The notes under the pieces are model-generated. The model was not told the origin of the DNA. It was given only the letters and a program-made list of their open reading frames with translations, and did no database searches. The translations under genes were made by a program, and so were the position numbers. Source: Anaerolineales bacterium (lineage in GTDB: Bacteria > Chloroflexota > Anaerolineae > Anaerolineales > UBA11579). Taken from it: a stretch of DNA of 39,259 bases. The stretch covers positions 1 through 39,259 of the forward strand of contig JAFGRA010000330.1 in the NCBI GenBank assembly GCA_016935415.1, in the 5' to 3' direction. Shown piece by piece: positions 33,963-39,259 of this stretch. Numbering within the stretch: the stretch's first letter is position 1; each line of letters starts with the position of its first letter.

Positions 33963-34751
33963 TTATGCTTCAAGCAACCCATATCCACTCTCAACCAACT
34001 CGCGGAATTGGTTGACGAAGCGCACCATCGGAGCGCCGTCGACGATGTCGTGGTCGATGCTAATGGTCAGGTCGAGGTATTCGCGGATTTCGATGCGCTC
34101 TTCGACCACACCCGGTTTGCGGGCAATGCCGCCCACGGTCACGGTCAGGGTGAAGTTGGGTACGGTAATGCCCCAACCGCCGCCTTTGCCGAACATGCCA
34201 ATCGCAGTCACGATCACCGAACTGGAATATTGGCGGAAGAACTGCGGGACGCGCATCACCAGCCAATAGAACGCCCGGCGGATGAAAGCAGGCAGCACCA
34301 GGAACCACTGCATGAAGTTGACTTCGTCGGTCTCGCTGGGTTTGTTCTTGGCATTGCGGATTTCGTTATGGATATCCAGGTAAGTCTTGCGGTTGACGGC
34401 CTTGAAAATGTAGGGCACGGGAATGCGTCTGCCGTCGCGCTCGATCTCGACCATCGAATTGATATTGATGTCTTCGAAGATCACCAACTGGTTGCGCCAG
34501 TTGCGATAGGCATGCATGTGCGGGTTGCTTTCAATGGCCTTGCCCAAACAATAGATGATATACCCCGTAAAGGATAAGCTTTCCCCGGTGTCCGCCTTGT
34601 ACTGGCGCATGTGCTCGCGCACCTCGGTCACATCGACCTCGATCAAGCCGTGCACCATGTGCCTGCGCCGCCCAAGATACCCCGCGTCCAACGAAAAGCG
34701 GCGCATCTTGGGAATTGATTCTAGTTTATATGCTTCCTGATGGTCAGCCAT
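33963..34751 (-). CDS. free-standing 2-oxoacid dehydrogenase-type acyltransferase domain
   Basis: The 262-residue protein corresponds to the catalytic E2 (chloramphenicol-acetyltransferase-like) domain without lipoyl or E3-binding domains. The active-site motif SIDHDIVDGAPMVRF (HxxxDG, about 234-248) is complete, and SLSFTGYIIYCLGKAI and MVEIERDGRRIPVPYIF are family segments. A hydrophobic-aromatic insertion (MQWFLVLPAFIRRAFYWLVM, about 147-166) may attach it to a membrane or partner. Without a lipoyl arm it probably acts on CoA or carrier thioesters. A GAGGAGGAA ribosome site precedes ATG. The operon context is unclear. Confidence 0.85.
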   Translation of the reverse strand: MADHQEAYKLESIPKMRRFSLDAGYLGRRRHMVHGLIEVDVTEVREHMRQYKADTGESLSFTGYIIYCLGKAIESNPHMHAYRNWRNQLVIFEDININSMVEIERDGRRIPVPYIFKAVNRKTYLDIHNEIRNAKNKPSETDEVNFMQWFLVLPAFIRRAFYWLVMRVPQFFRQYSSSVIVTAIGMFGKGGGWGITVPNFTLTVTVGGIARKPGVVEERIEIREYLDLTISIDHDIVDGAPMVRFVNQFRELVESGYGLLEA

Positions 34752-34927: not shown

Positions 34928-34955
34928 AAACAGACGGGCTTGCGCCCGTCTGTTT
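34928..34955 (-). terminator. strong intrinsic terminator of the YeeE/cytochrome operon
   Basis: A 12-bp stem (34928-34939 with 34944-34955, arms AAACAGACGGGC) with TTGC loop; in minus orientation it ends in seven T. It lies about 120 bases beyond the rhodanese-fusion stop. Confidence 0.9.
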
Positions 34956-35053
34956 CAATTCTTACCAAGCGTGGAGGACGCTTTCAGCGTTCACCTAAAA
35001 GTAAGTCAACCGAAGATCATAAGCGTGGAGAAAATCGTAGGTTTTCTCCTAAA

Positions 35054-35080
35054 GGTTAGGAAACCAGAGGTTTCCTAACC
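35054..35080 (-). other. stem-loop spanning a stop codon
   Basis: GGTTAGGAAACC-(3)-GGTTTCCTAACC, 12 perfect pairs. The TAG stop of the rhodanese fusion (35077-35075) lies inside one arm. It might stabilise the 3' end of the message or affect release. Confidence 0.75.
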
Positions 35081-36307
35081 GCATCCACCACCCGCCGGAC
35101 CACGCTTCAACTCCAATTTGATCTTGGGCGTGAATTCCAATTCGAAGTGCTCGGCATTGGGATAAGCGGCCTCATGGCGGGAACCCACCGCGGAGTCGAA
35201 GACATACGCCAGTTGGTCGTCGCCTGTGGCGGCTGTTGTTGCCATCCCTTCACCATCATGGTCGAAGGTCGCCAACCAGTTGTTGATGCCGCCTTCCAGG
35301 ATGTATACATTGGGTACTGCCTCAGCCACCAAGAGCTTCCAGGCTTCCGTAGCAGCAGCCTCATCGTTGCTCATCACCACGAAAACGGTATTGGCCGGTT
35401 CCAACAACATGTCGGGGACACGGTCGAGCACCTGGTCCAGCGGGACATGTTCGGCGTCCAGCAGGTGGAAGACGTTGTAATCCGCCTCGGAGCGCACGTC
35501 CAGCATCACCAGCTTGAGTTTGGAGTCCTCGCGGGTTGCCAGCAATTCGCCAGGATGAATTTGTACTTCGCGCGCATCCAGTTGAAACTGCCTTTCAGCG
35601 GAAATGGACTGCCACTTCTCGGCGTTGGTCGGTTGGCCGATACCCAGCGTGACCAGGGCAAGCACGATCAGGGCCGCAGCCCCGGCGTAGCGCACCTTGG
35701 GTGCTTTAGCGGGGTCTTTGCCGCCGAAGATTTTCTCCAACTGCTCGCCGCCCCAGAACATGAACAGCGCCATCAGGATCACCAGTAGTACCACCCAGCC
35801 GGTAGGCAAACCCAGCCACTGCGGCAGGGTGAAGCGCCCCATGTAGGAGGAGTAGAAGAAATCATTGAAGCTGCCGACGGTTTCGCCGAAGACAAAAATG
35901 CCGAAGAACACACCCAGGACGAAGAGCACGGCGTCGATTTTGCCGGTGGCCGCGCCAACCAGCGAGGTGCCGGGGCAGAAACCGCCAACGATAAAGCCCA
36001 CACCCATCACCAGGCCGCCGACGATACCCGGCCACAGATAGGTCGGGTTGACGTAGACCAGGTTGTAGTCCAGCAGGCCAACCGCAGCAGACAGGAAGAC
36101 GCCCGTCATAGCAACGATGATGGCCATGAACATGACCTTGAGCACGGTCAGGTCTTTGAAATAGAACTGAGCCGCCAACAATTTCGAATTACCGAACCCG
36201 GCGATCTCCAGCACGTAACCGAAAGCAAAACCGATCACGCCAAAGATGATGTAGGCCAATACCGGGCCAAGATTTTGAACGAGGTTAACGGGAAAAGGAG
36301 CCATCAT
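35075..36307 (-). CDS. YeeE/YedE transporter fused to rhodanese domain
   Basis: The 410-residue protein has an N-terminal YeeE/YedE (sulfur-transport family) membrane domain with about six helices (15-225). It contains the conserved GGFCPGTSLVGAATGKIDA (Cys111), which is a thiosulfate-relay cysteine in characterised YeeE/TsuA. A soluble rhodanese-like domain follows (about 248-350): MLDVRSEADYNVFHLLDAEHVPL and YILEGGINNWLATF are typical. The active-site loop reads VMSNDEAA with no cysteine, so classical sulfurtransfer is not possible there. The protein ends RGPAGGGCG, offering one C-terminal Cys409. A GGAGG ribosome site precedes the ATG pair. It starts nine bases after the upstream YeeE gene. 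Confidence 0.93.
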   Translation of the reverse strand: MMAPFPVNLVQNLGPVLAYIIFGVIGFAFGYVLEIAGFGNSKLLAAQFYFKDLTVLKVMFMAIIVAMTGVFLSAAVGLLDYNLVYVNPTYLWPGIVGGLVMGVGFIVGGFCPGTSLVGAATGKIDAVLFVLGVFFGIFVFGETVGSFNDFFYSSYMGRFTLPQWLGLPTGWVVLLVILMALFMFWGGEQLEKIFGGKDPAKAPKVRYAGAAALIVLALVTLGIGQPTNAEKWQSISAERQFQLDAREVQIHPGELLATREDSKLKLVMLDVRSEADYNVFHLLDAEHVPLDQVLDRVPDMLLEPANTVFVVMSNDEAAATEAWKLLVAEAVPNVYILEGGINNWLATFDHDGEGMATTAATGDDQLAYVFDSAVGSRHEAAYPNAEHFELEFTPKIKLELKRGPAGGGCG

Positions 36308-36316
36308 AAACCTCCA

Positions 36317-36901
36317 CTAATTCCAGAACTTGCGCAGGAAATACGCCAAGGCGTACGCCCCGCCAAAAACAGCGAACATGAACGCCCAGCTGCCGACCGA
36401 AAGCACCGCCCCACCGGACAGCGCCTGCCCGGAAGTGCAGCCGCGCGCCAGGCGGGCACCAAAGCCCATGAACGAGCCACCCAGAAAGGCCATGAACAAG
36501 CGCGTACGTCTGGTAATGTTGGGGCCTTTGTTGGTTTCGATCTTAACACGCCCGTTCAGCCAGCCGGAGGTGAAGCCGCCCAGCACGACGCCGATGGTCA
36601 CGAAGACGATCCAGCTATCGAGCGGGTTACGCTCTCCACCGGCCATCTCCAGCAGATAAGGCGTGCGGTCGACGTGTTCAGGGACGACCAGGTCTTCAAC
36701 GAAGACCAACATGCGGTTCAGGCCACCCGAAGCACCCAGCCCGCTGCCGGTGATGAAGAAGGATGCGAACAGTACCAGGCCGAGCAATGCCCCGGCAAGG
36801 TACGGGTTAACGTAGGCTTTCTCTTCGCGCTTGAAAATACTGGTCTTGGATTTACTCTTCGAAGCAACAGGCTTGACAGTTTGCGTAGAAGTAGTCATCA
36901 T
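36317..36901 (-). CDS. small YeeE/YedE family membrane protein
   Basis: The 194-residue protein has a basic N-terminus (about 1-30), then four membrane helices and the family motif ARGCTSGQALSGGAVLSVGSW with Cys155. It is half the size of single-chain YeeE, as in two-subunit sulfur transporters (PmpA/PmpB-like) where each half carries a cysteine. It probably pairs with the adjacent YeeE-rhodanese protein to conduct a reduced sulfur species across the membrane. Its ATG overlaps the cytochrome stop by four bases, so expression is coupled. Confidence 0.9.
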   Translation of the reverse strand: MMTTSTQTVKPVASKSKSKTSIFKREEKAYVNPYLAGALLGLVLFASFFITGSGLGASGGLNRMLVFVEDLVVPEHVDRTPYLLEMAGGERNPLDSWIVFVTIGVVLGGFTSGWLNGRVKIETNKGPNITRRTRLFMAFLGGSFMGFGARLARGCTSGQALSGGAVLSVGSWAFMFAVFGGAYALAYFLRKFWN

Positions 36902-39259
36902 TCACTTGCCTCCTGGGTTAGGTCTCCGGCGTCAGGGTCGAGTTCCGAAGGAACTCGTTCTTGAGATTGCGCCGGAGGCGCAATCTCAACCTCGTCCCAA
37001 CCATCAATCATCGCTTTCATACTGGTAAGTGGCTTATGGCCGGTGGTGGTCAGGTACACGTGGGCAACGATAAAGGCGGCAAACAGCCAGGCCACCAGGC
37101 TGTGGAACGGCCCCAAGAAGGGCAGCCCACCCAATGCAGCAGAGATGTCCGGCCAACGCTGCGCGCCCCACATCAAGATCCCCGTAAGCACCTGCAAGGG
37201 CAGCAGTACGTTGAGGATACCAAAATAAGTGATCCTTTGCAGCGGGTTGAGCTTGCGTTCACGCGTCTTCTCAAAGGGATGTTCTTCCTTGCGGAAGATG
37301 CCACCGACGTAGAACTTGGCTTGCGTAATGGCCTGATCGAAGAAGCCGCGCGGCTGCGGGATATACTGGCGAATTTCACCGCTGGCGAGGTGGTAGAACA
37401 GCGAGAGGAAAGCGTTCGCCACCAGGATGAAACCGAGGATGTTATGCAACAGCACCACATAACGGAAACTGAACATGCCGAACATATCCGGTTTGTGGAT
37501 AATCAGACCAGTAAAGATCAGCAGCAGGATAACGGTGGTTTGCAGCCAGTGCCACAGGCGTTCGTACACGCCATACATGTAGACCTTCTCCAGTTCGGGT
37601 TCGACGGCGTGCTGCTGGCGTTTGGCGAAATAGTAACGCAGGCCACCGTGGACGGATACGCCGCCGAGTACACCCAGGAAGAACAGGATACCCAGCCAGT
37701 CGACCCAGGTCACGTTGTTATGCCCGATAACGTACAGGCCATCGGCCGCGGGATCGGGCTGGTAATACAGCATACCATTCTCATCCTGAACAACATCGCC
37801 ACCAATATTGGTATTTACGTTTGAAACGAATTCGGGCAGCACACCACCGGGCGTGTAGGCAGACAACGCAATTGGCTGTGTGAGCCGGGAGTTCTCGCTG
37901 TGGCAGGCCTGGCAGTCGCGCGTCGCCCACTCGGCGGTGGTAACGTTGTGGTTGATGCTGTAAGGCTGCACCTCACCAACAATGCGTGGGTCTTCCAGAC
38001 CAAGGGCTTGCAGTTGCTCCTGGATCAAAACTACGTGATCGCGGATTTCCAGAATGAACAATTCATCTTCGGTGAGGATACCATCGCGGTTGGCATCAAG
38101 CGCTTCAACGATCTCCGGCTTATATGTATCGCCATCCAGCCAGGCAGCCTGCAAATCGACCTGGCTGACCGGGCGGGCCGGGTCACCGTAGACCCAGTAC
38201 CAGGCGGTGATCAAGTTGTACGGGGCCAGCGATTTATTGCCATCCACATCGGTGCGCTGCAAGACAACCGGCTGGTAACCCGTCACCAGCACATTGACCG
38301 AACTCGGGTTATCGCCTTCGATACCGCGATAACTGATGCGCGGTTCGCCGTCAGCATAGGCAACCGTCCAGTCGACTTCCTGGTAAGCGGGGGCGTACAT
38401 CTGCGGGATATGGCAGGATTCGCAGCTTACCGCGTCCACGTGGCGGTCTTTATAAGGCAGCCAATCGTGGGTATTCTCGATCGAGTGGCAGGACTCGCAA
38501 CGCCGCATCGTGCCGCGCAGTTCGGGGGCCACATTGTCCTGGGCGCTTTCACCACGTGCAAACTGGTGCAGCGGCTGGTAAAGGTAATCGCCAAAGCCCA
38601 GGCGGCGCGGGTCGAAGATCAGGTGCTCGGGTTGGTCTCCCCGATCCACCGCCAGCACGGGATTATTAAGGGAGAAGTGGCAGTCCACACATGCCACCAC
38701 ACGTTCGCTGTGTACGTCCCAGGAACGGGTCAGAACGTCTTTATCGGCCAGGTTCATGCCGGAATTGGCAATGCGCTGCGGAGAAACGATCTGTCCGGTG
38801 GTCAGCGTTTCCCAATTCTCAGCGGTGTATTCCGGCGCAGTAAGCACTTTGTTGGGGTCATTATGAGTCATGCCGTGGCACAGGCCGCAGTTGTCATTGC
38901 TGGGGTCCTGCACAGTCACAAACTCACCAGCCAGTTCGCCATTCTCCTGGAAAGCGGCGGCGTTCCAGGTCCATTCGTCACCATCCCGGGTGACGATACC
39001 ACTGCTCACCAGCGTGGCCGTATTGGCCCAACCGAAATCGCCAGCTTGCAAGGTCTCTATGCGAGCAGCATTGTCGGGGGTTTCGAGGTGGCACAGAAAG
39101 CAGTTCATCTCCACTGTGCCGGATTCAGACCAATCCCAGGCCACCAGTTCGCCGGTTTCCGGGTCATGTATGGCGGTCTCGACATTATCGGCGTCGGGGG
39201 TCAACTGCGCCAGGGCGCGGCCATCGCGGTCATATTCGGCCGGGCCGCCGCCGACGTGC
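36898..39259 (-). CDS. multiheme cytochrome c / cytochrome b fusion, 5'-partial
   Basis: The frame is open through the right window edge, so the N-terminus is missing; numbering here starts at TTG 39204. Six CxxCH heme sites are visible (Cys35, 106, 172, 236, 261, 431). The spacing and extra His recall tetrathionate-reductase-family octaheme cytochromes, but more hemes may lie upstream. A canonical EF-hand loop (DANRDGILTEDE, 370-381) lies in between. A membrane part follows from about 500: one anchor plus a four-helix cytochrome b561/PhsC-like domain with His552, His587, His605, His701 and His715. I infer electron flow from quinol to the external hemes. Two hairpins lie in the 3' coding end. 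Confidence 0.92.
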   Translation of the reverse strand, partial: HVGGGPAEYDRDGRALAQLTPDADNVETAIHDPETGELVAWDWSESGTVEMNCFLCHLETPDNAARIETLQAGDFGWANTATLVSSGIVTRDGDEWTWNAAAFQENGELAGEFVTVQDPSNDNCGLCHGMTHNDPNKVLTAPEYTAENWETLTTGQIVSPQRIANSGMNLADKDVLTRSWDVHSERVVACVDCHFSLNNPVLAVDRGDQPEHLIFDPRRLGFGDYLYQPLHQFARGESAQDNVAPELRGTMRRCESCHSIENTHDWLPYKDRHVDAVSCESCHIPQMYAPAYQEVDWTVAYADGEPRISYRGIEGDNPSSVNVLVTGYQPVVLQRTDVDGNKSLAPYNLITAWYWVYGDPARPVSQVDLQAAWLDGDTYKPEIVEALDANRDGILTEDELFILEIRDHVVLIQEQLQALGLEDPRIVGEVQPYSINHNVTTAEWATRDCQACHSENSRLTQPIALSAYTPGGVLPEFVSNVNTNIGGDVVQDENGMLYYQPDPAADGLYVIGHNNVTWVDWLGILFFLGVLGGVSVHGGLRYYFAKRQQHAVEPELEKVYMYGVYERLWHWLQTTVILLLIFTGLIIHKPDMFGMFSFRYVVLLHNILGFILVANAFLSLFYHLASGEIRQYIPQPRGFFDQAITQAKFYVGGIFRKEEHPFEKTRERKLNPLQRITYFGILNVLLPLQVLTGILMWGAQRWPDISAALGGLPFLGPFHSLVAWLFAAFIVAHVYLTTTGHKPLTSMKAMIDGWDEVEIAPPAQSQERVPSELDPDAGDLTQEASE
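36939..36989 (-). repeat. two perfect triloop inverted repeats inside coding sequence
   Basis: CGAGTTCC-gaa-GGAACTCG (36939-36957) and, three bases later, TTGAGATTGCGCC-gga-GGCGCAATCTCAA (36961-36989, 13 perfect pairs). They encode part of the hydrophilic tail of the cytochrome b domain, some 40 bases from the overlapping start of the next gene. Confidence 0.85.

Follow-up and report, generated by a model that had tools for sequence, protein, structure and literature searches.

Why should the genes for a multiheme cytochrome, two YeeE-type sulfur channel proteins and a rhodanese without its catalytic cysteine (Cys) be joined in one operon? This question is raised by the last part of a 39,259-nucleotide stretch of DNA from an Anaerolineales bacterium (contig JAFGRA010000330.1, here called the window), which is the entire contig C30 of a 4.9 Mb genome assembly in 425 contigs. 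The answer we favour, and to which we give a probability of roughly 0.55, is that these genes take part in encoding one membrane complex, in which quinone-linked extracytoplasmic sulfur redox chemistry would be coupled to the direct hand-over of sulfur to a channel by an arm bearing Cys or selenocysteine (Sec). The three closely linked genes pointed out in an earlier reading of the sequence alone (the sequence-only reading) are all present on the minus strand, at 35075-39258. The cytochrome gene overlaps the small YeeE gene by 4 bases, and a gap of 9 bases separates the latter from the YeeE-rhodanese gene. The operon contains the following features:

36898..39258, minus strand: multiheme cytochrome c and cytochrome b561 fusion, 786 amino acids (aa), 5' end lost to the contig end (family searches, fold comparison)
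36988..37596, minus strand: cytochrome b561 / PhsC-like membrane domain (PF01292, E 6e-25; PRK15006, 152 bits)
36317..36901, minus strand: PmpA-like C-terminal half of a YeeE channel, 194 aa (PF04143, StYeeE alignment)
36437..36439, minus strand: codon of Cys155 (ARGCTSG), equivalent to StYeeE Cys293 (alignment; Cys in 78/78 relatives)
35075..36307, minus strand: PmpB-like N-terminal YeeE half with an extra transmembrane helix, an inactive-type rhodanese fold and a GGGCG C-terminal arm, 410 aa
35975..35977, minus strand: codon of Cys111 (GGFCPGTS), equivalent to StYeeE Cys91 (profile alignment; UGA, read as Sec, in three relatives)
35258..35626, minus strand: rhodanese-like domain with Ser313 in place of the catalytic Cys, predicted extracytoplasmic (family search, model, alignment)
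35078..35089, minus strand: C-terminal GGCG tail (Cys409 codon 35081-35083; UGA, read as Sec, in five relatives)
34928..34951, minus strand: intrinsic-terminator-like hairpin 3' of the operon, with which the sequence-only reading had also begun its region

A profile of the YeeE-rhodanese protein scanned against 85,000 species genomes found at least 555 relatives, of which the best 80 were retained. Every locus among them with room for four genes (66/66) showed the order OTR-cytochrome-YeeE-YeeE/rhodanese on one strand, where OTR stands for a cytochrome of the octaheme tetrathionate reductase family, and the other 14 were interrupted by contig ends. Such identity of order and strand means that the gene arrangement is not due to chance, and the adjacency in relatives on which the sequence-only reading had let its proposal depend was found wherever a locus was able to show it. 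The three genes of the window would thus be the last three of a cassette of four. Its carriers are found in Anaerolineae, Lysobacterales and other Gammaproteobacteria, KSB1, Planctomycetales, Gemmatimonadota and, as one metagenome-assembled genome (MAG), Actinomycetota; taxon labels of the MAG carriers may be wrong, and the two carriers that are not MAGs are Vibrio hangzhouensis CGMCC 1.7062 and Alteromonadaceae Bs31. The non-Chloroflexota loci inspected (gammaproteobacteria, KSB1) have the cassette mostly amid unrelated genes, which indicates that the four genes are the minimal unit. Within the class the YeeE-rhodanese gene is present in 70 of 396 genomes sampled and the cytochrome in 32 of 199, mostly at 50-60% identity, while a Vibrionaceae sample gave 2/150, the query genome itself being one of the two. 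This patchy distribution suggests spread of the cassette by transfer. A plasmid collection gave one partial match, in an unannotated record.

The gene upstream of the cytochrome in relatives encodes an octaheme cytochrome which belongs, by its sequence, to the OTR family (TIGR04315, 560-586 bits against a cut-off of 375) and matches the solved Shewanella oneidensis structure 1SP3 with E 2e-147. Eight CxxCH motifs are present in 85 of 86 cassette OTRs of relatives, and equivalents of Cys64 and lysine (Lys) 153 of 1SP3, which we take to be the residues lining the active heme, are each kept in 86/86, the former being the sole conserved Cys outside the CxxCH motifs. The title of the 2004 paper by Mowat, cited in PMC11237559, speaks of 'novel heme ligation'. 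While 1SP3 is described as a stand-alone enzyme, the OTR of the cassette has a cytochrome b conduit and the two halves of a sulfur channel as fixed partners.

In the window, the cytochrome protein has the composition already claimed from the sequence, a multiheme cytochrome fused to cytochrome b. Six CxxCH motifs are left in the truncated window copy (seven in intact relatives), and residues 562-753 of 786 were assigned by family search to cytochrome b561. The best NCBIfam match is PRK15006, the cytochrome b of PhsC thiosulfate reductase, whose 152.5 bits lie under the cut-off of 204 and indicate relation only. In fold comparison the soluble part of the model resembles 1SP3 weakly, and the membrane part resembles the cytochrome b of hydrogenase and formate dehydrogenase, as would be expected of a quinone electron conduit. 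From PhsC-type and b561 quinone subunits, with which it shares the fold of the cytochrome b domain, the cassette protein differs in being fused to an extracytoplasmic heptaheme domain of OTR-like fold. It is probably the quinone link and not the catalytic subunit, and the OTR-family gene more likely encodes the enzyme. The proposal that a sulfur channel is coupled to a multiheme respiratory enzyme in one operon is in this way supported by synteny, by the OTR partner and by sulfur-handling cysteines, but the enzyme should more likely be sought in the upstream OTR.

The two YeeE-type proteins, which had been described as a half-size YeeE and a second YeeE, are indeed both YeeE-type but should be regarded as complementary halves of a single YeeE, because each matches the opposite half of PF04143: the small YeeE covers positions 158-309 and the YeeE-rhodanese positions 7-161 (87.8 and 62.3 bits, gathering score 27). 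The small YeeE aligns to StYeeE 237-327, with the Cys of ARGCTSG, conserved in 78/78, equivalent to Cys293, and Cys111 of YeeE-rhodanese aligns to Cys91 in profile search; Foldseek of the YeeE-rhodanese model gave rhodanese-type matches only and no YeeE, so the YeeE register was taken from the profile search. In StYeeE these are the first (Cys293) and second (Cys91) Cys of the thiosulfate relay (PMC11073785). A counterpart of its third relay cysteine, Cys22, is lacking in both halves, and these, with 36.6 and 22.8 bits, miss the NCBIfam cut-off of 400 for TsuA/YeeE transporters. The fold family and two of the cysteines are therefore shared with YeeE/TsuA (StYeeE, 6LEO/8K1R), whereas the cassette channel is divided into two chains, has no TusA-like YeeD in the cassette, and adds an extra helix as well as a rhodanese and a Cys tail that are predicted outside. 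A closer likeness is that to the split YeeE PmpA/PmpB, in which two halves carry one conserved channel Cys apiece (PMC11582611). The cassette likewise has two chains with one half and one conserved channel Cys each, although PmpA/B are about 130 aa long and the cassette halves, of 194 and 410 aa, include the fused rhodanese and arm and always occur with OTR and cytochrome b. Elsewhere, also in the same order, PmpB-like proteins of about 190 aa occur on their own (G427:C33:13582-14139, G089:C59:45396-45986, G473:C16, G493:C66 and others). Several of these matches span TGA codons, and could be Sec forms or gene ends.

The rhodanese domain lacks its active-site Cys, as had been recognised: the position is occupied by serine in 44, glycine in seven and aspartate in two of 53 aligned proteins, and a catalytic role was for that reason ruled out. 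To call the domain dead, however, overlooks the C-terminal Cys arm. The only conserved cysteines among the 53 proteins are Cys111 and Cys409, the latter within an invariant GGC at the extreme C-terminus (GGCG in 51/53). The linker ahead of it is poorly conserved (mean top-residue frequency 0.50) and the last ten residues were modelled with low confidence (54), as for a flexible arm. In SoxY the Cys of a C-terminal GGCGG carries sulfur substrates (PMC6067878). The two systems have in common a glycine-rich flexible tail with a near-terminal Cys, a neighbouring c-type cytochrome enzyme and a predicted extracytoplasmic site, but the cassette tail forms part of a membrane channel protein, has Sec variants and shows no SoxY homology (no PF13501 match to the YeeE-rhodanese protein at E up to 1).

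The Sec variants, found in relatives and not in the window, came to light when the cassette genes of about 100 loci were translated with UGA as Sec. Only the codons of Cys409 and Cys111 have in-frame UGAs that are well within a gene, the others being at or past gene ends. The tail reads GGG-UGA-GG-stop in five species (L076, L105, L135, which equals L050 of genome G124, L145 of G167 and L173 of G684), and L135, L145 and L173 have UGA at Cys111 as well. All five possess a hairpin of 7 bp with a 3-nt loop, resembling a Sec insertion sequence (SECIS), that begins 15-16 nt past the tail UGA; a stem of at least 6 bp is present in that area in 8 of 75 Cys tails, most of different geometry. Sec machinery was searched for in G167, G124 and the L076 and L105 genomes. 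SelB was detected in all four, full-length in G167 and the L076 genome and as fragments at or near contig ends in G124 and the L105 genome, and tRNA-Sec is strong in three of them (G167, L076, L105). It was not clearly found in G124 (87% complete), where the best match is barely at the cut-off and is like another long-arm tRNA. Sequencing errors or pseudogenes are an unlikely source of UGAs which hit only two conserved Cys in five species with a common hairpin. Since the five species form one clade (support 0.99), the tail Sec had a single origin, several independent ones being ruled out, and was kept across substantial divergence. The exchange of Cys and Sec marks both positions as working thiols. 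No Sec was detected at OTR Cys64 or at the Cys of ARGCTSG in the same loci. A published table of GenBank-annotated Sec proteins includes an OTR and a YeeE with a GUxSG motif (PMC13188914), and neither the Cys111 nor the Cys409 position was seen in it. At about 13.6-17 kb the L076 locus also encodes a YeeE-like protein apart from the cassette, which has an in-frame UGA at the channel Cys (GMAGAGFUPGTCAAG) and is judged by sequence to be likely another selenoprotein YeeE.

Does the arm lie on the side of the hemes? In the YeeE-rhodanese model (mean pLDDT 84, pTM 0.80) six long membrane helices precede the rhodanese. Mean numbers of Lys plus arginine (Arg) alternate along the chain in a way that matches, by the positive-inside pattern, an N-terminus outside: the segments that would face outward (the N-terminus, loop 76-90 and the net acidic loop 142-168) have 0.02, 0.11 and 1.1, and those that would face inward (loop 39-53, the Cys111 loop and loop 196-207) have 2.4, 1.0 and 3.8. 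In StYeeE the cytoplasmic surface includes Arg98, which comes shortly after Cys91 (PMC11073785), and this fits an inward-facing Cys111 loop. The extra sixth helix would then bring the rhodanese and tail outside, and an extracytoplasmic position is what the charge pattern and the StYeeE register together predict.

In the mechanism we propose, the OTR would be the catalytic subunit, carrying out redox chemistry on the outer side of the membrane with a thiol or a compound containing S-S, and the heptaheme-cytochrome b protein would shuttle electrons between it and the quinone pool. The YeeE halves would make one channel with a two-cysteine relay. The rhodanese, having no catalysis of its own, would be an extracytoplasmic mount for the flexible arm, whose GG-Cys-G end (GG-Sec-G in one clade) would ferry sulfane sulfur or a thiosulfate adduct between the mouth of the channel and the active site of OTR. 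We lean slightly towards the reductive direction, in which quinol would drive the reduction of tetrathionate or of some other S-S compound and the sulfur product would be taken up. The leaning is only slight because potentials permit both directions with menaquinone: reduction of tetrathionate can be driven by menaquinol, and menaquinone could in turn receive electrons from the oxidation of sulfide or persulfide. It is possible, if rather less probable, that the same machine runs oxidatively, with sulfide, persulfide or thiosulfate conjugated to the arm Cys and electrons passed to quinone by way of the hemes and cytochrome b. The potential of thiosulfate oxidation is beyond the reach of menaquinone, so that the donor would need to be sulfide or persulfide, and reduction is the activity described for the characterised OTR. 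The SoxY-like tail (PMC6067878) speaks for oxidation, which would resemble the conjugation of sulfur to SoxY by SoxAX, and so do other OTR genes that adjoin soxYZ in lucinid symbionts (PMC11237559). A Thiobacillus MAG has a gene for an SQR/FCSD-like flavoprotein 3' of the cassette (L133 9431-10732), which hints at sulfide oxidation there. Of the 15 cassette genomes tested, however, 14 lack SoxY itself, which means that the arm serves no Sox system in them.

A simpler account is plain tetrathionate respiration, where OTR would yield thiosulfate, YeeE would import it and the rhodanese-tail would be only a docking or regulatory domain. It agrees with the OTR family membership in relatives and with the import of thiosulfate by YeeE/TsuA (PMC11073785), but it leaves unexplained the invariant terminal GGC and its replacement by Sec, both of which are expected only of a chemically active thiol, and we consider it unlikely.

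Regulation offers a further explanation. The usual order in neighbourhoods of the class is a gene for an ArsR regulator of about 110 aa, then OTR, cytochrome, small YeeE and YeeE-rhodanese. The ArsR gene is present in 42 of 80 loci, nearly always immediately ahead of the cassette (for example L048 3147-3470), its product has one Cys that is invariant in 57/57 (ICQALGDPKR), and its best match among sulfur- and selenium-related models is TsoR, below the cut-off of that model. SoxT1B signals with SoxR (PMC11582611), and by analogy the ArsR protein may sense imported sulfur. SoxT1A/SoxT1B have in common with the cassette YeeE-like sulfur import or signalling beside an ArsR-type regulator, but they are full-length YeeE proteins without a multiheme partner and without an arm. 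If this precedent is carried further, the YeeE part could be mainly a sensor which signals extracytoplasmic sulfur to the repressor. We regard this as improbable, because the examined loci outside Chloroflexota keep the same four-gene core, yet no ArsR gene was detected ahead of it.

Several points weigh against the channelled complex that we prefer. No cassette OTR was found in this genome assembly, the window included, and the single full OTR-family gene of the genome, on contig C87, is a different paralogue. From this and from the synteny of relatives, the missing partner most likely sits in the assembly gap past 39259. The likeness of the arm to SoxY is, in sequence terms, one of motif and not of homology, and the Sec clade, being of single origin, counts as one event for the tail. 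In addition, Shewanella OTR reportedly reduces nitrite and hydroxylamine too (Atkinson 2007, cited in PMC11237559), and to our knowledge the physiological role of OTR, for which a structure has been solved, is not settled. A nitrite or hydroxylamine pathway defined by the upstream genes had been named as the outcome that would speak against a sulfur system. The upstream gene in relatives is an OTR, which weakens the nitrite reading, yet the activities of the S. oneidensis enzyme lend it some support. A nitrite or hydroxylamine reductase accompanied by sulfur genes for another purpose, such as thiol maintenance, nevertheless seems the least probable explanation, given the invariant pairing with sulfur-channel halves bearing conserved relay cysteines and the different gene context of the paralogue of this genome that has neither Cys64 nor Lys153. 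The lack of these two residues, together with an extra C-terminal cytochrome region and an Fe-S subunit gene after it, also ruled out joining the window to the OTR gene on C87. That gene (L052 1201-3597, genome G000) has extra C-terminal CxxCH motifs and a C-terminal membrane helix, and is by its sequence a divergent OTR of another respiratory complex.

In the open-access literature we found no paper joining an octaheme cytochrome and YeeE in this way, in accordance with the sequence-only reading, which knew of no described system with this set. We tentatively suggest, with somewhat less confidence than for the mechanism, that the cassette represents a class of respiratory machine not described before, whose multiheme oxidoreductase and sulfur channel would share a covalent SoxY-like Cys/Sec arm that joins quinone-linked extracellular sulfur chemistry and sulfur import in a single channelled process, and that it includes a new selenoprotein family. 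If true, Sec would occur in this family both in the channel lining and at the penultimate position of the tail. The cassette offers OTR a concrete, testable place in sulfur metabolism and suggests that a direct channelled link can exist between sulfur-compound respiration and the uptake of sulfur. It is carried by widespread uncultured Anaerolineae and also by cultured strains such as Vibrio hangzhouensis, and the natural Sec replacements indicate, ahead of experiment, which two thiols do chemistry.

A stand-alone 2-oxoacid dehydrogenase acyltransferase-like domain adjoins the operon in the window (33963-34751). It is unmatched among the surveyed neighbours and is probably unrelated to the operon.

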